Shown here: one piece after another, positions 15,083 through 60,200 of the stretch
Numbering within the stretch: position 1 is the first letter of the stretch
How the letters are laid out: each line of letters starts with the position of its first letter
Source: Oleiphilus messinensis
Lineage (GTDB): Bacteria > Pseudomonadota > Gammaproteobacteria > Pseudomonadales > Oleiphilaceae
Direction of reading: 5' to 3'
NCBI RefSeq assembly: GCF_002162375.1
Contig: NZ_CP021425.1
Coordinates: 5,101,001-5,165,000 of the forward strand
DNA: 64,000 nucleotides
The notes under the pieces: generated by a model
Told to the model about the DNA's origin: nothing
Databases searched by the model: none
What the model saw: the letters and a program-made list of their open reading frames with translations, nothing else
Translations under genes and position numbers: made by a program

Positions 15083-16180
15083 TCAGGGGCAAAGTGACTG
15101 GTGCGCGGATAAAATCAGCGAAGCGGTTTCTTCCCAATTGATACATGCGTCGGTGATAGATACACCATACTCCAGATCATCCTTGTCCAGGTTCTGTCTA
15201 CCCTCTTTCAGGAAGCTCTCAAGCATTACACCTTTAATCGCTGAAGTCTTCCGCACAGTCAATTGCGCCACAACATTCTCAAAAACAAGACCTTGTCTGG
15301 CGTGATCTTTACCTGAGTTTTCGTGACTGCAATCAATCACAATCGCCGCATGCAACCCCGCCTTGGATAATGCAGCTTCACAGCTGGCAACATTGTCAGC
15401 ATCGTAATTCGGTCCACCTTTTCCACCCCGCAACACCACGTGTGCATCGGGGTTACCGGAGGTTTCAATCATCGCAATCTGACCTTGTCCATCCATGCCC
15501 AGAAACGAATGGGGCGACATAGCAGACTTGATGCCATTGAGCGCAATTTCGAGACTACCATCCGTCCCGTTTTTGAATCCGGTAGGCACTCCTAACCCGC
15601 TTACCATTTCCCGGTGAATTTGTGACTCACTCGTTCGCGCTCCAATTGCCACCCAGCTCAACAAATCGGAAAGGTAGGGCATGGCTAACGGATTCAACGC
15701 TTCAGTCGCAACCGGAAGACCCAGACCAGTCAACTCGAGCAACAGCGCCCGTGCGGACTTGAGTCCGGTTTCCATATCATGACTACCGTCCAAAGACGGG
15801 TCATACAACATCCCCTTCCAGCCCACGGTGGTACGAGGCTTTTCAAAATAACAGCGCATGACCAACAGCATTTTGTCTTCAACCTGCGCCTGCAGCATCT
15901 TAAGCTTTCGGCCATACTCGAGCGCCGCTTCAGGATCATGGAGAGAACATGGCCCGGTAATCACCATCAAACGGTCATCCGTACCATTCAGAATGGCTTC
16001 AATTTCCCGTCGATGGCCGGCCACCTGTTGCAAAAGCGCATCCGTTGCCAAAAGTTCGGATTTCAGGGTTTGCGGTGAAGGTAGCGGTCGGGCGGATTGT
16101 GACTGTGCAATATCAACTTGAGATATATCCCGCTGCTCAGTTATTTCTGTCGTTTGCAAAATTGCCATATTCGCTGTCAT
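15083..16180 (-). CDS. aroG: class I DAHP synthase (3-deoxy-7-phosphoheptulonate synthase)
   Basis: Catalyses the first step of the shikimate pathway, joining phosphoenolpyruvate and erythrose 4-phosphate. About 365 aa, normal for the AroFGH type. Visible motifs: MVITGPCSLHDPEAALEYG, VMRCYFEKPRTTVGWKG, GARTSESQIHRE, PTGFKNGTDG, HVVLRGGKGGPNY, DCSHENSGKDH and GVMLESFL. ATG at 16180 is preferred over a TTG 21 nt upstream because of the GAGA element before it. Which isozyme (Phe-, Tyr- or Trp-inhibited) cannot be read from sequence by eye. It is preceded by a leader ORF with an aromatic codon cluster and an attenuator-like terminator, so supply of aromatic tRNAs probably controls it. Confidence 0.95.
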   Translation of the reverse strand: MTANMAILQTTEITEQRDISQVDIAQSQSARPLPSPQTLKSELLATDALLQQVAGHRREIEAILNGTDDRLMVITGPCSLHDPEAALEYGRKLKMLQAQVEDKMLLVMRCYFEKPRTTVGWKGMLYDPSLDGSHDMETGLKSARALLLELTGLGLPVATEALNPLAMPYLSDLLSWVAIGARTSESQIHREMVSGLGVPTGFKNGTDGSLEIALNGIKSAMSPHSFLGMDGQGQIAMIETSGNPDAHVVLRGGKGGPNYDADNVASCEAALSKAGLHAAIVIDCSHENSGKDHARQGLVFENVVAQLTVRKTSAIKGVMLESFLKEGRQNLDKDDLEYGVSITDACINWEETASLILSAHQSLCP

Positions 16181-16416
16181 GTTCAGATTCTCTTTTCTCA
16201 ATTGTTATCGTAAGCTGAATTTGCTGTATGTTCGTATTAAATGACACGGATCATGGCCACATTCTGAGCTCGGAAGTCAGTTTTTACAGTGTAATCAACA
16301 CCGTTGTCGACTTTCCAAAGCTGCGAATGCGGCCTGGATAAATCGCCAACTGCAATAAAAACAACTACATCTATCCCTCATGTTTGCCTCTCAAATAAAA
16401 CTCAATGGCATAAACG

Positions 16417-16483
16417 AAAAAACCCCGAAGGTTTTGCCTTCGGGGTTTTTAATCCGGGAGGCAGAACCAGCGGTCTGCCTTCC
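16417..16483 (-). promoter_or_regulatory. transcription attenuator of aroG
   Basis: Minus strand, in order after the leader ORF stop: a 10-bp hairpin (GGAAGGCAGA with TCTGCCTCCC, 16483-16456), then a strong intrinsic terminator (CCCCGAAGG / CCTTCGGGG followed by TTTTTT, 16450-16417). The 3' arm of the first hairpin (TGCCTCCCGG) can instead pair with the 5' arm of the terminator and its loop (CCCCGAAGGCA). That gives the mutually exclusive pause, antiterminator and terminator structures of a classical attenuator. Pairing was assessed by eye. Confidence 0.75.
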
Positions 16484-16502
16484 TATAATCTCGTCGATCG
16501 TT

Positions 16503-16706
16503 TTACAGGTAGCCTAACCGCGCAACACTAAAGCCGCTAAAGTAAAACTGCCACCAATAAAATCGTACGGTACGACTCGCGTTAACCAATTTACGCGCAA
16601 GCGAGTCTGCTGACTGTGTCGTACGTTCCTGGGCATCGTTGCCTTTGACCGTAGGCGCATCAGAGCGAATTGCTTGGGATAAAATTACACGGTTAACTGT
16701 TTTCAT
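16503..16706 (-). CDS. aromatic leader peptide of aroG
   Basis: A 67-aa ORF ending about 20 nt before the first attenuator hairpin. Residues 49-56 are FYWWQFYF: seven of eight codons specify Phe, Tyr or Trp, and two more Phe/Tyr follow close by. Ribosome stalling here when charged aromatic tRNA is scarce would favour the antiterminator. A TATGAT -10-like element sits just before the ATG, leaving almost no untranslated leader. The N-terminal half (SDAPTVKGNDAQERT) is longer than typical leader peptides, so the true start may be internal, or the protein may have a second role. Confidence 0.65.
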   Translation of the reverse strand: MKTVNRVILSQAIRSDAPTVKGNDAQERTTQSADSLARKLVNASRTVRFYWWQFYFSGFSVARLGYL

Positions 16707-16785
16707 AGCGTCAGATCATACCGAACTCTCGATCAAAAAAAAACCACTTGTTTCAATTTTTTCCAACTTGGGCAAGTCCGGGCCA

Positions 16786-17553
16786 TTAGCGACTTAGCTC
16801 CATCAAGATTTTCCGGGCGAGATTCAATCGCGCAGCCAGGTAATCAGTGCCCCCTCGATCGGGGTGACACTTTTGCATCAGACGTCTATGCGCTGTCGTG
16901 ATTTCCTTATCGGTTGCCCCAGGTCGAAGCCCAAGAATATCGTATGCCTCCCGGACACTCATCCCATCCTGACTTGGTGACTGACTCTGATTGTTTGAAG
17001 CTCCGGAGTAGTTTCCACGCTGATAATGTTGACGCCAAATGCCACCTACTTTTTGATCCAGAAACGACTCAACACAGGTCACAGAGTCTTCATCACTTGC
17101 ATGAGCTTGATCCAGCAATTCTAACAATTCCGTCACCGAGAGCGTGTCGATATCCTTTCCTTTGAATAGACCTGCAACCACTACACCCGATAATTTCTGA
17201 GTCAATACATCCCGGTTCATACACAACAAAGGGGTTACAAGCTGATGCTGTTGAGGGGCCGAGCCAAATTTCCCGGGCAAACCATTTGCCCAATTGCGCA
17301 ACCCGGGAATATGACGGAATGCTAAAGAAACAAAAGGGAGAATCCGGCGCGCGAAAGGCAGCAATCCGGTAAAAATAGCCGCCAGAATATGTAATCTACC
17401 GGTAACCGTAAGCAGCACGAGCAATGAAATCAGTGCCCCGACGCCCCACTTGAACATCAGCTGTTTACGTTCTTCCGGTGATGCGGAACGCCACGCATGC
17501 CGCATCATAAACACCGCCAGCAATACCGCAGTGACAACAATCAATTTAAACAT
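16786..17553 (-). CDS. membrane-anchored J-domain protein
   Basis: A 255-aa protein with two to three N-terminal hydrophobic segments (about residues 3-17, 38-52 and 55-75) and a C-terminal J domain (REAYDILGLRPGATDKEITTAHRRLMQKCHPDRGGTDYLAARL with the essential HPD). A middle segment (TQKLSGVVVAGLFKGKDIDTLSVTELLELLDQ) is a helical region seen in small DnaJ-domain membrane proteins. The HPD tripeptide should stimulate DnaK ATPase at the inner membrane. It is not DjlA, which is encoded at 34439. It ends 80 bp before the aroG leader ORF on the same strand. Confidence 0.85.
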   Translation of the reverse strand: MFKLIVVTAVLLAVFMMRHAWRSASPEERKQLMFKWGVGALISLLVLLTVTGRLHILAAIFTGLLPFARRILPFVSLAFRHIPGLRNWANGLPGKFGSAPQQHQLVTPLLCMNRDVLTQKLSGVVVAGLFKGKDIDTLSVTELLELLDQAHASDEDSVTCVESFLDQKVGGIWRQHYQRGNYSGASNNQSQSPSQDGMSVREAYDILGLRPGATDKEITTAHRRLMQKCHPDRGGTDYLAARLNLARKILMELSR

Positions 17554-17687: not shown

Positions 17688-19343
17688 CTACAGCGCAGGG
17701 TGCGCGGAAAGCAAGGTAGTGCTTTCCTGAATCAAGTCGGGACTCATGCCCGGTCTACCATCAAGGCGAGCCTCAACGGAGTAACTAACCCGATTCACAC
17801 GACGAAAGTGACGCCAGCCACTCAGAAAATCTAATGATTTTTCGAGTGGTTGGTACCAACGCTGAAGTTTGTGGTAATACTGATAACCCCCGAGCGCCAT
17901 CCTTACAGGCGGATGCTCGGTCTTAACGGTACCCTTCGCGTTAATACCAATGAGTTGTTTTGGCGGCTTTTCTTTAAAGCCATAATGCCGACGACCAATC
18001 ACTAGCGCGGCCCCATGGTGATCTGAAAAACCGTGTCGATCGCGATATTTCATCCGCCCCAGTAATGAGGTATAAGCAGGGTTGACGTGATAAAGGCGTA
18101 TGCCGCGTTTTATGCTTTGCGTTTCAATCAAGTCCTTGATCTTACCGTAAGCAAAGGCATTCAACATGCGGGCATACTGAGGGTGATCCTGCTTTTGGTA
18201 TTGCCGTTTCTTTTGCTGAAAATCCAGCTTTTCGATCACCACCGCTTTACCTTGCTGCGCGGCAAAATCCATCAGGTCTCGTACGGCATCCCCAATAATG
18301 GCTGACCGTTGAACATCATTCTTATAGTGTAGCGGTAAGTCAAACGTTCGGTGTTGCAGTGGGTTACCGTTTCGATCCAGCTCGACGACCGCTAAGTGGT
18401 CCGGGTTGACATCTACACCGATGACACCTTGGTCATCATCGATCCACTCTGCTTGCTCTGCTGGTCCTGCCACTTCCACGCTAACGAGTAACCGCCAACC
18501 TTTTTTGTCTCGTTTAAATCGAAAACTCAGGGGTTGCCCTTTGATTGATTTATCGTGTTTTTTAACCTGATTCTGCCAAACGGCTTGGGCAATAGCCGCC
18601 TTACCATGCTTGAATTGCAGGTGATCAATGTTAATGGTCGTGCCAAACGTGGCGCGTAATTGATGGGGCACAAAGAGTTTTAGCTGGTAAGCACCTTCTT
18701 GCTCACTGGGCGATAGCTGGGCATTTTGACAGCCCCAGGATTCGTCATGAGACCCCACCAAGAGAAATTCGCGGTGTCGTGCTTCGTGCCAGCGTTGTTT
18801 CCAGCCTTCAATGGCCGAACCCGTTTCTAACGCTTGACGCTCTTTCAGCAGCTTTCGACCACCAAAACAAATCGGTGTTTTGTTTTCCTGTTTTTCGGCC
18901 ACCAAGGCGGACTGCTTTTGCTGCCAACGACGCAGTTTAACTTCCTTCTGTCGTAACCTGTTGCGAAGTTGTTTCGCCTGTTGCGGGCAGCCTTTCTCTG
19001 CAACATGATCACAGCGCTTATTTAGCTTGTTGAGCGTCTTCTCCAGCTGTTTGATTTTAACGTCCAGCGTCACCAGTCGGTTGTTTCGATTGGTTTGGTA
19101 AGACTGGATTAAGCCTTTAATGCTTTGCTGGACGCCTTGAAACACCCGATAGCTGAACGGCATCCCCATTTCATGCATAAACTGGGTACGATTCAATTGC
19201 TGGGCTTTAGGCTTTTGTAAGTTAGCAAACCAATGAAACTTCACTTGATTCCACAGCTCGGCATATTGGCATAATGCCGCATTCTGCTCATGAATCAAAT
19301 CAAGCCGGGTTTCAAAGGTGAGAGTTTTCGTTGGCGTATCCAC
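17688..19343 (-). CDS. tnpB: TnpB-related RNA-guided nuclease-like protein
   Basis: A 551-aa protein of the large TnpB-related group found in IS607/IS605-type elements. The RuvC core is visible: first Asp in VIGVDVNPDHLAVVELD, Glu in AVVIEKLDF, and a third acidic position in HGFSDHHGAALVIGRR. The usual TnpB CxxC zinc-finger pair between the second and third motifs is absent. The N-terminal half is longer than standard TnpB (about 400 aa) and contains a lysine-rich coiled-coil stretch at about residues 85-150. GTG start overlaps the tnpA stop (TAGTG). TnpB enzymes cut DNA with a guide RNA from the element's end; activity of this variant is inference. Confidence 0.82.
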   Translation of the reverse strand: MDTPTKTLTFETRLDLIHEQNAALCQYAELWNQVKFHWFANLQKPKAQQLNRTQFMHEMGMPFSYRVFQGVQQSIKGLIQSYQTNRNNRLVTLDVKIKQLEKTLNKLNKRCDHVAEKGCPQQAKQLRNRLRQKEVKLRRWQQKQSALVAEKQENKTPICFGGRKLLKERQALETGSAIEGWKQRWHEARHREFLLVGSHDESWGCQNAQLSPSEQEGAYQLKLFVPHQLRATFGTTINIDHLQFKHGKAAIAQAVWQNQVKKHDKSIKGQPLSFRFKRDKKGWRLLVSVEVAGPAEQAEWIDDDQGVIGVDVNPDHLAVVELDRNGNPLQHRTFDLPLHYKNDVQRSAIIGDAVRDLMDFAAQQGKAVVIEKLDFQQKKRQYQKQDHPQYARMLNAFAYGKIKDLIETQSIKRGIRLYHVNPAYTSLLGRMKYRDRHGFSDHHGAALVIGRRHYGFKEKPPKQLIGINAKGTVKTEHPPVRMALGGYQYYHKLQRWYQPLEKSLDFLSGWRHFRRVNRVSYSVEARLDGRPGMSPDLIQESTTLLSAHPAL

Positions 19344-19639
19344 TAGGCGATGGCTCGTTGATTTTTACGACTACGTGAACCATGCAATCGCGCAATTTGA
19401 GTTTGCAAATCTTTTTTCTGATCATGAGAAGAGACGCGTGCATAACAGATCGTTCTGCGTTGCTCATTAGCAGTCGACTGACCACAAAAGGCTACAAGTT
19501 TATCAAGCGCGTAACGACGATGGCCACCCGGCGTACGGAAATCTGAGAAAAATCGTGAATCTTTTTCCCAACGACGAAGGGTGGAAACGGCCACACCCAG
19601 CAGAAAAGCGGCAGCGCCTATCGATAGAAATTCAGCCAT
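19343..19639 (-). pseudogene. tnpA: internally deleted IS607 serine recombinase (TnpA)
   Basis: The 98-aa product starts with an intact MerR-like helix-turn-helix (FLSIGAAAFLLGVAVSTLRRWEKD, then TPGGHRRY) and enters the resolvase domain at TICYARVSSHDQKKDL, which contains the catalytic Ser. After LQTQI it jumps to ARLHGSRSRKNQR, which matches the extreme C-terminal segment of full-length IS607 TnpA (about 200 aa). Roughly 90 residues of the catalytic domain are missing without breaking the frame. The ATG at 19639 has GGAGG 8 nt upstream. It should bind DNA but not recombine. Confidence 0.8.
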
Positions 19640-19855
19640 AATCATGACCTCCATCCATGAGAAAACAATACTGTACAAGCTACTGTATATGAGTAGGTTT
19701 AGTCAAGTATTTAGTTAACTGTTAAAGCCCCGAGTGACAATTCAAAATCTGTAATGTGCACAAAAATAACTTGCCATCCCTAGCGTAAGCATCAAGTCCG
19801 ATTTAGTATGGTGTCTTCAACGTGAATTGATACGACTTTGACTTGAGACCACATT

Positions 19856-20701
19856 ATGATTGCTTACCAAGGCCACCAGGGCGCTTATTCCCATCTCTCT
19901 TGCCAGCATGTATTTCCAGACAGGGAAGCACGGGCCTGCAGTACGTTTATCGATGCCATGCAAATGGTGGAAAAAGGGCAAGCGGAGTTGGCCATGATTC
20001 CTGTGGAAAATTCGACAGCCGGTCGTGTTGAAGAAATCTACCGCTTGATTCCCAAGATGAGCTTACATATTGTGGGTGAACACTTTGAGCCCGTAAACCA
20101 TTGTTTACTGGGGCTGCCTGGTGCACAACTTGACGCGCTCACTCAGGTTGCTTCTCACCCCCAAGCCCTGGCACAGTGCGCACAGAATATAAGACGTCTC
20201 AATTTGTATCCAAATGCCACGCTGGATACCGCCGGTGCAGCAAAAGAACTCAAGGAATCCGGGGATTATCACAGCGCCGCGATTGCATCAAGTCTTGCGG
20301 CAGAACTATATGGCCTGGAAATACTGGAGGAGAACTTTCAGGATATCAGCGGGAATACCACTCGGTTCATCATTCTGTCTCACACCCAGGCACTTCCGGC
20401 ATACCAGGAAGGTGTTTCCTATATGACATCAATCATTTTTAAAGTCCGCAATATTCCTGCTGCGCTTTACAAAGCACTCGGCGGTTTCGCGACCAATGGT
20501 ATCAATCTCGTCAAGCTGGAGAGTTACATGCCCGGTGGAACATTGAATTCAAGCCAGTTTCACGTCGATATCGAAGGCCACATCGAAGAGCGACCACTGC
20601 GACTTGCCATGGAAGAGCTCAACTTCTTCGCAGAAGATGTCAGGTTATTAGGTACCTACCGTGCGCACCATTTCAGAGCCAGCGTGAGCTATCATGATTA
20701 A
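19856..20701 (+). CDS. pheA: prephenate dehydratase with ACT domain
   Basis: A 281-aa monofunctional prephenate dehydratase converting prephenate to phenylpyruvate for phenylalanine synthesis. Catalytic domain: AYQGHQGAYSHLSC, AMIPVENSTAGRVEEIY, H...CLLGLPG, SHPQALAQC, and the diagnostic ISGNTTRFIIL. A C-terminal ACT domain (SIIFKVRNIPAALYKALGGFATNGINLVKLESYM) should sense Phe. There is no N-terminal chorismate mutase domain, unlike enteric and Pseudomonas PheA. It starts just after the IS607-type element, and an aminotransferase follows 84 nt later. Confidence 0.94.
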   Translation: MIAYQGHQGAYSHLSCQHVFPDREARACSTFIDAMQMVEKGQAELAMIPVENSTAGRVEEIYRLIPKMSLHIVGEHFEPVNHCLLGLPGAQLDALTQVASHPQALAQCAQNIRRLNLYPNATLDTAGAAKELKESGDYHSAAIASSLAAELYGLEILEENFQDISGNTTRFIILSHTQALPAYQEGVSYMTSIIFKVRNIPAALYKALGGFATNGINLVKLESYMPGGTLNSSQFHVDIEGHIEERPLRLAMEELNFFAEDVRLLGTYRAHHFRASVSYHD

Positions 20702-20785
20702 CGTGCGATAGCAGGACAGATGGTATCCGCTTTGCTTTACTGTTAATAACGTATGTACCCGAACCTGACCCACGAAGGCCGTAAA

Positions 20786-22078
20786 ATGAACAATAACAGT
20801 GATCGCTCGTCCATCAATTTAAATGTTAGAGGCATTTTGCCCTCAGCAACACTCCGAATTAACGAACTGTCGAACAAGCTGAAAAGTGAAGGCAAGGAAA
20901 TCTTCAAGCTCGGGCTGGGCCAGTCCCCTTTCCCGGTTCCTGAAGTGGTGGTTGAATCTTTACGCCAGCATGCCCACGAAAAAGACTACCTGCCGGTTAT
21001 GGGATTAATGGCACTACGTCAGTCAATCGCTGAGTACATGAGCCGGGTGCAGCACATATCGCGCCGTGCAGAAGACATCATTATTGGTCCGGGCTCCAAG
21101 GAATTACTGTTTATCATGCAAATGGCCTACTACGGTGACTTGCTCATTCCCAGACCAAGCTGGGTTTCCTATGCTCCACAGGCTCGCCTGCTGGGCAGAA
21201 GCGTATACTGGCTGCCCACCGGACCGGAAAACAACTGGCAATTGACCGCGGATGAGCTGGATCTGGTCTGCCGGGATGACCCCACCCGACCACGCATTTT
21301 GATCCTCAACTATCCATCCAACCCCACCGGTTGTACTTACACGGATGACCAACTGCTTGAACTGGCTTATGTTGCGCGCAAGTACAATATTGTATTGCTG
21401 TCAGATGAAATCTACGGCGAAACCCGCTACGACGGCGAACACAAATCCATTGCTCGCTACTACCCGGAAGGCACTATTATCAGTACCGGATTAAGCAAAT
21501 GGTGCGGTGCCGGGGGTTGGCGTCTGGGTGCCTTTATATTTCCTCAAGAACTGAAGCCACTGCAGGAGGCCATGGCCATTATCGCAAGCGAAACATTCAC
21601 AGCGACATCGGCCCCCATTCAATATGCTGCCATTCGCGCCTTTCAAGGTGGCGAAGAAATCGATAATTACCTCGCAACATCGCGCAGGGTGCTTGCCGCG
21701 CTCGGTGAGTTCATTTACACAAAACTGTCTCAGATGCAGGTTAAGCTGAATCGACCGGAAGGCGGTTTTTATGTATTCCCTGATTTTGATCACTACCGAC
21801 AGGATCTGGCAAAGCACAATATACTCACCAGTGCCTCACTCTGTAATCGTCTGCTTGAAGACACCGGCATCGCTATGTTACCGGCAAGCGACTTTGGCTT
21901 CACGCCGGACACATTGATATCCCGGATCGCCTTTGTTGACTTTGACGGCCAGGCGGCCATTCAGGCAGCGGATAGCATTGGCAATGATACCCCCTTGGAT
22001 GAGTCATTTATCATCGAGAACTGCCCAAAAATTGCGACTGCTTTGACCAAAATGGAAGCCTGGTTCAAAGGGCTCTAA
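20786..22078 (+). CDS. PLP-dependent class I/II aminotransferase
   Basis: A 430-aa fold-type I aminotransferase. The PLP Schiff-base Lys lies in STGLSKWCGAGGWRLGAF, NYPSNPTGCTY carries the pyridine-contact Asn, and LLSDEIYGE the Asp that binds the ring nitrogen. ATG at 20786 has AAGG upstream; an ATG 33 nt earlier has no ribosome site. Location right after pheA suggests transamination of phenylpyruvate or another aromatic keto acid, but substrate cannot be read from the sequence. Its 3' end is the first unit of an 18-bp tandem repeat. Confidence 0.88.
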   Translation: MNNNSDRSSINLNVRGILPSATLRINELSNKLKSEGKEIFKLGLGQSPFPVPEVVVESLRQHAHEKDYLPVMGLMALRQSIAEYMSRVQHISRRAEDIIIGPGSKELLFIMQMAYYGDLLIPRPSWVSYAPQARLLGRSVYWLPTGPENNWQLTADELDLVCRDDPTRPRILILNYPSNPTGCTYTDDQLLELAYVARKYNIVLLSDEIYGETRYDGEHKSIARYYPEGTIISTGLSKWCGAGGWRLGAFIFPQELKPLQEAMAIIASETFTATSAPIQYAAIRAFQGGEEIDNYLATSRRVLAALGEFIYTKLSQMQVKLNRPEGGFYVFPDFDHYRQDLAKHNILTSASLCNRLLEDTGIAMLPASDFGFTPDTLISRIAFVDFDGQAAIQAADSIGNDTPLDESFIIENCPKIATALTKMEAWFKGL

Positions 22079-57239: not shown

Positions 57240-60200
57240 TTAGGCACCATTTTTCTCAATCCTTGCGAGATACATATCTACAAGTTTTTCTTTTAAGCAT
57301 TTCGCCAATGTTTTTACATGAGGGTGAAAGTTCATAGTGATATGGTTGCCTTCCATCTTGAAATCCCAAAACCTATCTCCGGTCCATTTTTGCCAAGATT
57401 CATGGGGGCGAGGGGGTAAGTTAGCCAATGGTTCTGTATGCCTGAAATACATTACCGGCCCATCATAAGGTTGGGGTTGGTACGCAAAAGTTGCTTGCTG
57501 ATGAGCTATCCACGTATTCAGTAAGGGGACACTAAGATAGGGAGGTAAAACCTCACTTTTATCAGCGGATTGCGCAAGCTCAATCACATAGTCAATTTGT
57601 TCTTGAACACTTTCTATTTGTCTAAGTCGATGGATATCTAATGGCAGCGCTCCCTGTAGCATGTATTCCAGTACAGATGCACTATCCCTTATTGTATCAG
57701 GCAGGTCTTCGGGGGCCGGAGTATCAATCATGACAACCAACTGTACTTCAATATTCCTTCGGTGTAGTTGTTGTGCCATCTCGTATGCAACCATACCACC
57801 AAAAGAACTCCCCCCTAAAATGTAGGGGGGCTCCGCTTCCGTACTCAACAACTCCGCAACATAATCGGTTGCCATGTTAACCACAGATGTGTAGGGAGCA
57901 CTTTTCCCAACCAGACTATGAGCTTGAAACGCATAAACGGCCTGGTCGACGCCTAAGTATCGAGCTAAATCTCGATAAAAATAGACCTCTCCACCAATCG
58001 GATGAACCAAGAAGATAGGCCGCTTAACTTCATCCCTCATTCCGTCACCTTTCTGAATCATGACCAATGGACTCGTCGCCGATAGCGCCCCAGCTTCACG
58101 GACCCGTTCAGGGTGTTGCGTAATGCTTTTGATATGCAGAGTAAGCTTCGCAACACTTGAATTGTTTATCAGAACATGAGACTCAATCGGAACGTCAAAT
58201 CGTTCCATTAATTTATTGACCACATTTACTGCGATCAAAGAGTCACCACCTATATCAAAGAAACTATCATGCCGATTGATTTTTTTATGTCCAAGGCACT
58301 GTTGCCAAATTTGCAGTACGGCCAATTCGGTTGGATCAAGAATGGCATTTTCTTCATCTCTCAGAGGGCTCACACCTTCAACCGGCCCACTATCCGCTTC
58401 TAGAACAGTACTGCGGATTATTCCTTTTTGCGTATGAGCGGGTATCCAATAGGGCTTTTTATCGAATGGATAAGTCGGTAACGGTACCCGGCCCCTGAAA
58501 CGATTTGCATAAAACTGATTCCAATCGACTCTAATATCCAACATCCAGAGACGAGCCACTAACTTTAGCAGCAGCTCCGTATCATCTACTTTGCTACCCT
58601 GGGGATGCCTTGTTGTGGAGAACACTTCATCCTGGGTTGCCAGCGAAGGATGTTGTCTGGCTAAGGTACTCAACACTTTTCCTGGTCCAACTTCAATCAA
58701 TAACATCCCGGTAGTGTCGTCTTCTCTTTGATCCAGCAATGTGCTCAAACCATCGTGAAAGCGAACCTCATTACGCAACTGCTGAGCCCAGTATTCTGGA
58801 TCCGTAGCCTGTTCATCCGTAATCAACTTCCCGGTAACAGAGGAAATGAATGGTCGACTTGGATCAGGAGGATTCAAACGCCTTTTTGCGACCGAAGCTT
58901 TGAATCGTTCCACGACAGGCTCCATCATATAGGAGTGGAAAGCATGAGAAGTTTTCAATATTCGGCTTGCAATTTTTTGCCGATCCAATTCTTTTTTAAA
59001 TAAGGAAATAGCATTAACATCGCCAGAAACAACACAACGACTCTCTCCGTTTATCGCGGCTATCGACAGTCTGTCCTCTTGGGAACTTGCTTGGATCAAC
59101 GACTTTAGCGAATCTTCCGAGGTTTGTACTGACAGCATACAACCTTTCTTTTCTTTCAATTCATCTACTATAAGTTGACCTCGAATCGCCACCAGCTCCA
59201 GTGCATCTTCTAATGAAAATACTCCAGCCAGATGCGCTGCAACATACTCACCGATACTATGACCAATCATCAAGTCAGGCTCAATGCCCCAGGACATAAG
59301 CATTTTAGCGAGTGCGAATTCAAAAATGAACAATGCAGGTTGAGTGATATTTGTTTCATGTATTTTATCTGACTGGGCCCTGAGATCTTTGTCTTCAAGA
59401 CGGTCAAAGGTGTAAACAAAACGATCCATCAATAACAATCGACACTTCTCGATCGTCTCCCGAAACTGGATTTCAACCTCAAACAATTGCTTTCCCATGC
59501 CAACGTACTGCGAGCCCTGGCCAGAAAACATAAATGCGATTTTTCTTCGGATAGGTTTGTATTTTTCCGTAATGACAAAAGCAGGGTCTAATTGCGCCAA
59601 TTTTTGCTGCGCATCTTTAAAACCAGAACACAAAAGATAACGTCGGTAAGGAAAACGAGTACGCCCAACCTGAAGCGAATAACATATATCTGCAAAATTC
59701 AAGGATCTCTCATTTTCCTTCAGATAGGCCTTAAACTCATTTGTCATTTGCTCCAATGCACTCGGCGATTTAGCACTTAGCGTCAAAATTTGCTGACGAC
59801 GTGCGGCCTCTCCATGGTGTATTTGTGGAGGCTGACGCACAACTACGTGAGCGTTAGTCCCACCAATACCAAAAGAACTCACTGCTGCAAAACGATCCCC
59901 TTGCTGTTCAGGCCAATCCTTTAACTCTGTATTGACATAGAATGGCGTAAGTCTGAAATTGATGGCCAAGTTTGAATTTTTGTAATTTAATAAGGGCGGA
60001 ATTTTCCCCGTTTGCACGGCTTTCACAGCAGAAATTAAACCGGCTATACCTGATGCAGCGTCTAAGTGACCTACATTCGCTTTTACAGATCCAAGCGCAC
60101 AAAACTGGCCTTTTTCACCTTTTAAACCAAAGGCTTTGGACAGTGCCCTCACTTCTATCGGATCCCCTACTTTTGTTCCCGTCCCATGAGCTTCGACATA

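Follow-up and report, generated by a model that had tools for sequence, protein, structure and literature searches.

A predicted his-type aromatic attenuator and a second conserved leader ORF precede a DAHP synthase gene in Oleiphilus messinensis and its relatives

Attenuation at the his operon operates through a relay in which the leader RNA adopts either three hairpins (A:B, C:D and E:F) or two (B:C and D:E). For DAHP synthase, an attenuator with a Phe-Tyr-Phe leader has been predicted in front of aroF of Corynebacterium glutamicum (PMC4046766), and this prediction represents the only precedent found at such a gene; no tandem leader is described in the accessible part of that report. An attenuator with a leaderless leader ORF is exemplified by the Sinorhizobium trpL/rnTrpL attenuator RNA, which begins at the leader-ORF ATG (PMC7298713), while two short leader ORFs within one leader mRNA are known from Salmonella mgtCBR, considered in 2012 to be a singular example of tandem attenuators (PMC3641672). 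A further element of relevance is RF00627 (Pseudomonas sRNA P15), which is assigned the type Gene (sRNA) in Rfam and has been treated as an sRNA or, based on synteny, as a possible riboswitch (PMC2527527, PMC10215021). Nothing that links P15 to aromatic attenuation was found in the open-access literature searched, and older comparative papers might mention related attenuators.

In the current work, a stretch of 64,000 nucleotides of the Oleiphilus messinensis genome (contig NZ_CP021425.1, forward-strand positions 5,101,001 to 5,165,000; named “the window”) was analysed with respect to the region upstream of a gene located at 15083..16180 on the minus strand, the product of which was assigned by domain match to the class-I DAHP synthases (PRK12755 / aroFGH; DAHPS hereafter). 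All leader elements described below are located on this same minus strand. On the basis of sequence, conservation, covariation and folding, we propose, with a probability of roughly 0.87, that this gene is controlled by a his-type ribosome-mediated attenuator responding to charged Phe-, Tyr- and Trp-tRNA, and that a second leader peptide ORF (leader 2) likely acts as a second checkpoint. The first attenuator follows an ordinary mechanism: it shares with the his operon attenuator of E. coli/Salmonella (RF00514) the three-versus-two hairpin relay (locus L008 produced a 40-bit match to the RF00514 model, below its threshold of 49), yet it would sense three aromatic amino acids and precedes DAHPS, and no sequence homology is claimed. 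With respect to the C. glutamicum aroF leader, the likeness consists of a predicted attenuator with an aromatic leader ahead of a DAHP synthase, in a bacterium of another phylum.

Leader peptide 1 (MKTVNRV...RFYWWQFYFSGFSVARLGYL*; 16503..16706), identified from the ORF list and from relatives, is specified by 67 codons and contains the codon run FYWWQFYF (16539..16562), representing the putative stall site and having homologous runs in relatives. An earlier sequence-only reading of this DNA had already proposed an ORF with this run 5' of the DAHP synthase gene, and this is borne out by the current analysis, in which all six frames of the window were scanned (92,790 stop-free 8-mers) and FYWWQFYF alone had seven or more aromatic residues. 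The leader had additionally been called unusually long; with its 67 codons it is at the long end of the family, 48 codons preceding the aromatic run in the window compared to roughly 25-46 in other members. Elsewhere in the window, aromatic residues are densely clustered only in SEFFWYWW, part of a short ORF near 59860 on the minus strand. The leader peptides did not produce a match at or above the curated cut-off in Pfam or NCBIfam, and a search of a plasmid collection was likewise without a match.

Codons for the end-product amino acids are not confined to the window, but are kept in relatives. In each genome a short ORF is located ahead of one DAHPS paralog and has WQYWFYYF, WFGYGFYFSQ, WHFWFYFF, FYFGYWFSHWRA* or a similar sequence at its end, usually with a terminator after it. 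An aromatic leader ORF plus terminator was found 5' of one DAHPS paralog in the family of the window, in the sister families f20 (Pseudomonas-like), f44 (Halomonas-like) and f37, and also in f207; the arrangement is shared by relatives from at least three families (all such names, including the labels Marinobacter-like and Hahella-like used for other members, were inferred).

The sister families differ in how translation of leader 1 is expected to start. In the window, a -10 box (TATGAT; 16715..16720) is positioned 8 nt before the leader-1 ATG, which carries no Shine-Dalgarno sequence, and this points to a probable leaderless start with transcription beginning at or beside the ATG. Such a -10 box occurs 6-8 nt before the leader-1 ORF in 61 of 63 members of the window's family (exactly 7 nt in 53), and a Shine-Dalgarno sequence is absent from 60 of those 61 ORFs. 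Conversely, a Shine-Dalgarno sequence is present on leader 1 in 60/63 cases in f20 and in 9/13 in f44, where no leader is preceded by a -10 box of this kind. Leader 1 in the window's family is therefore probably a leaderless leader peptide. The spacing agrees with the previous statement that the -10 element leaves nearly no 5' untranslated region, and the predicted start does not fall 3' of the leader ORF, the sole -10 with a good promoter-like sequence being the one upstream. A TTGC-type -35 was seen in many of the listed sequences of the family, the window itself having a poor -35 match, and a promoter scan of the window did not return a promoter at this position. With respect to Sinorhizobium trpL/rnTrpL, that system is alphaproteobacterial, responds to Trp only and has a known start, whereas the start of the window element is predicted.

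The surroundings of the leader were also inspected. Immediately upstream and on the same strand, 16786-17553 specifies a membrane-anchored J-domain protein with weak DjlA similarity, and 17688-19678 (minus strand) contains an IS607-like element comprising a TnpB-family nuclease gene, which narrowly misses the NCBIfam cut-off, and a short upstream MerR/serine-recombinase-like ORF that is seemingly truncated. On the opposite strand, at a distance of some 3.7 kb from DAHPS, a monofunctional prephenate dehydratase-like ORF and then an aminotransferase-like ORF were read from the sequence (19856-22078, plus strand); inspection by eye of the 200 nt upstream of the former did not reveal an FYW leader or a terminator.

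From the aromatic run to the terminator, the RNA can be divided into segments whose pairings are mutually exclusive. Folding of the leader region, which had been suggested as a check, placed the 181-nt region 3.8 standard deviations below shuffled sequences. Segment 1 (16548..16562) pairs, according to folding, with 16512-16501 in untranslated RNA to generate a pause/protector hairpin (1:1'). Segment 2 (16504..16521), encompassing the final leader codons and the start of the stop codon, would have segment 3 (16470..16487) as its partner when the ribosome stalls upstream, and segment 3 would pair instead with segment 4 in the terminator state; this 3:4 hairpin (AGGCAGACCGCTGGTTCTGCCT; 16459..16480) is backed by folding, a duplex test and covariation. 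Segment 4 (GGTTCTGCCTCCCGG; 16454..16468), being the 3' arm of that hairpin, can form the antiterminator 4:5 with the 5' arm and loop of the strong intrinsic terminator (segments 5:6; 16418..16450), which is located before the structural gene, consists of 14 pairs plus a T tract and was obtained by both folding and covariation.

In the proposed mechanism, a ribosome stalled in FYWWQFYF would leave segment 2 free to form 2:3, as a result of which segment 4 would become available to engage the loop and the 5' arm of the terminator, allowing RNA polymerase to read through. Once translation had proceeded to the stop codon, the ribosome would cover segment 2, leading to 3:4 and then to the terminator, while lack of translation would permit 1:1' and, again, termination. 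When the window RNA was folded with a ribosome masking F49 or F56, 2:3 plus 4:5 was obtained, masking at the stop codon resulted in 3:4, and the unmasked RNA adopted 1:1' plus 3:4. Unlike the F49 and F56 positions, masking at W51/52 produced a minimum-energy fold that retains 3:4. The window's own 2:3 duplex does not rise above non-cognate duplexes (-10.5 versus -13.1, with automatic segment limits), whereas folding of the whole region does find 2:3. The terminator was present in every full-length fold, and the switch must therefore be kinetic.

This architecture revises the sequence-only reading in part. The hairpin at 16480 had been taken for the pause hairpin, and it is in fact the 3:4 helix of the relay, the pause hairpin being formed by 16562-16548 with 16512-16501; conversely, the proposed pairing of the terminator 5' arm with the hairpin 3' arm was recovered (arm plus loop, with 16468-16454). 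The claim that the full logic of ribosome-stalling attenuation is present was justified as to the conserved FYW codons and the alternative pairings, yet was incomplete, since the element comprises six segments in a his-type relay and not just one antiterminator, and the pairing that completes the switch, 16521-16504 with 16487-16470 (2:3), had not been described.

Both the FYW cluster and the alternative pairing, whose loss in relatives would have spoken against attenuation, are kept across divergent relatives. In alignment A3, 88% of cells were paired for the pre-terminator hairpin plus terminator, including 60 double-change cells, a result reached by 0/500 shuffles. For the antiterminator, to which A3 was not fitted, 78% of cells were paired with 26 double-change cells (again 0/500 shuffles), and slid controls were lower. 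In an alignment-free comparison of 27 diverged loci, the cognate 2:3, 3:4 and 4:5 duplexes exceeded non-cognate ones (permutation p < 0.0002 each). A mutually exclusive antiterminator is thus supported by covariation for 4:5 and by the cross-locus duplex test for 2:3. Moreover, a covariance model built from 36 leader sequences (including that of the window) matched f207, a family outside the window's order, with up to 92 bits, in front of DAHPS-like ORFs and together with aromatic leader ORFs. In two f207 loci (L272 and L274), the attenuator precedes DAHPS-like ORFs and the CGATTTA motif of leader 2 is not present.

The element corresponds to a family that is already catalogued. RF00627 scored above threshold on this very element in five Pseudomonas-like loci and in one Halomonas-like (f44) locus, and did so in 110/148 f20 genomes. 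In 48 of the 50 f20 P15 loci read, a DAHPS-like start follows the terminator at a distance of 139 to 270 nt (the automatic call was none for L202 and L224). An Rfam scan of the window at the gathering threshold did not produce any match, whether to RF00627 or to a riboswitch; judged by position, gene and architecture, the window element is homologous to P15, being too diverged for the Rfam threshold. In Pseudomonas-like genomes P15 is the same element at the corresponding site in front of DAHPS, although its f20 leader has a Shine-Dalgarno sequence and that of the window's family is probably leaderless.

This identity brings in the two interpretations under which P15 has been considered. According to the first, the terminated RNA would be a trans-acting sRNA with an incidental leader ORF, in line with the Rfam filing and with the Sinorhizobium trp attenuator RNA, which acts in trans (PMC7298713); considering that the FYW codons are kept in frame, that the mutually exclusive pairings are kept and that a DAHPS gene is located downstream in the loci read, this appears highly improbable, though an additional trans role may exist alongside cis attenuation. 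The second, a metabolite-binding riboswitch, derives from a published remark alone on synteny with a TPP riboswitch (PMC2527527), and its probability is close to negligible given that conservation resides in leader codons, hairpin arms and the terminator rather than in an aptamer-like core, and given the above-mentioned lack of any Rfam riboswitch match in the window. We retain ribosome-mediated attenuation as the reading of the first leader.

Readthrough transcripts would then encounter leader 2 (MRDRCSCFYCSWRFIQAAFAALESRQRC*; 16295..16381), which is located between the terminator and DAHPS, is preceded by the Shine-Dalgarno sequence GAGAGG (16387..16392) and was missing from the sequence-only reading. 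It contains the motif TGGCGATTTA (16339..16348; W-R-F codons TGG CGA TTT), the only copy in the window, and has homologues in f20, f44, f37, f39 and several genera of the window's family. A Marinobacter-like genus is without leader 2 and there the terminator is close to the DAHPS start. The f20 consensus reads Y-R-x-Y-Y-R-x-x-x-W-R-F-S ... R-T-x-x-stop, and 49 of 50 f20 loci harbour a Shine-Dalgarno-led ORF with W/G-R-F/Y, the fiftieth (L213) having W-S-L-S; other variants are WRY in L230, a CGC codon in L231 and WRFY in L235. Among these 49 loci, and with relatedness ignored, Arg is specified by CGA in 48 and Phe by TTT in 48, the corresponding shares in the DAHPS genes at these loci being 3.4% (of Arg codons) and 9.8%, respectively, and the stop codon is TAG in 46. 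It is well supported by such sequence evidence that leader 2 is coding. As a genome-wide regulon motif, TGGCGATTTA was not consistently above a reversed-pattern control in counts from six genomes. An origin of leader 2 by duplication of leader 1 was considered and rejected, F-S (TTT AGC) being common to both in many relatives without any wider similarity.

A second conserved leader ORF in the same leader, with sequence evidence for its translation, is thus present, as in the single leader mRNA of mgtCBR. The mgtCBR ORFs read different signals (ATP and Pro), whereas both ORFs of the window would read aromatic codons, the second being located past the terminator. Leader 2 is most likely a second aromatic checkpoint, and its probable structural output is hairpin 2 (16255..16334; z -5.9), the 5' arm of which is formed by the last part of leader 2 and the loop of which contains the stop codon. 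A hairpin that likewise takes in the end of leader 2, the stop codon being located within or close to its loop, was found in L015 (z -4.1), genus g15 and others, while in f20 a stable hairpin with covarying arms is located directly 3' of the leader-2 stop. A T-rich tail comes after hairpin 2 in one g15 genome (L037_G022), roughly 240 nt ahead of the DAHPS match, so that the structure resembles a second intrinsic terminator.

A ribosome terminating on leader 2 would block hairpin 2, and one stalled at WRF would permit it. If leader 2 acted in this manner on Rho-dependent termination before DAHPS, hairpin 2 arising only upon stalling at WRF, the position of the stop in or very near the loop (in several lineages as well as in the window, with its above-mentioned stability) and the placement of the f20 hairpin directly after the stop would be accommodated; we consider this tentative and somewhat unlikely, in view of the variable location of the hairpin with respect to the stop and of several non-f20 loci that fold no better than shuffles. 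Translational attenuation, in which the ribosome-binding site (RBS) of DAHPS would be sequestered by pairing with the WRF codons and opened by a stalled ribosome, draws on complementarity such as that of GACTGGCG with CGCCAGTC, the latter beside the ATG of DAHPS, in several lineages of f20 and on a permutation p of 0.01-0.03 in f20. Other families provide no support for this pairing, it is poor in the window (-6.0 kcal/mol), and an RBS accessibility model separated the stalled and terminated states poorly, with predicted accessibilities that are nearly alike; this option is accordingly judged unlikely.

Leader 2 might instead be a small trans-acting protein or an arrest peptide that senses a metabolite directly, as the W-R-F/Y residues are kept when codons change (WRY in L230, CGC in L231, CGG in L008) and the f20 C-terminus retains R-T-x-x-stop. 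The strong conservation is, however, at the level of codons (CGA and TTT) and not merely of residues, and the WRF-to-stop distance covers a range of about 3 to 34 codons, which makes this alternative distinctly unlikely. Returning to leader 2 as an aromatic checkpoint, we regard as evenly balanced the broader proposition that the same three amino acids gate DAHPS of Pseudomonadales at two successive steps, first through the P15 attenuator and then through leader 2, whose W-CGA-TTT codons are nearly invariant and which would act by a different, non-terminator mechanism, with the first leader being leaderless in one family.

The tandem second leader constitutes the surprising part of this locus and provides a tandem-leader system testable in laboratory strains that are harmless, and the sister families offer a natural comparison between leaderless and Shine-Dalgarno-led leader peptides. 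For the Pseudomonas-like bacteria, in which P15 was found in about three quarters of the genomes searched, the analysis suggests a function for “sRNA P15” at the point where the shikimate pathway begins.
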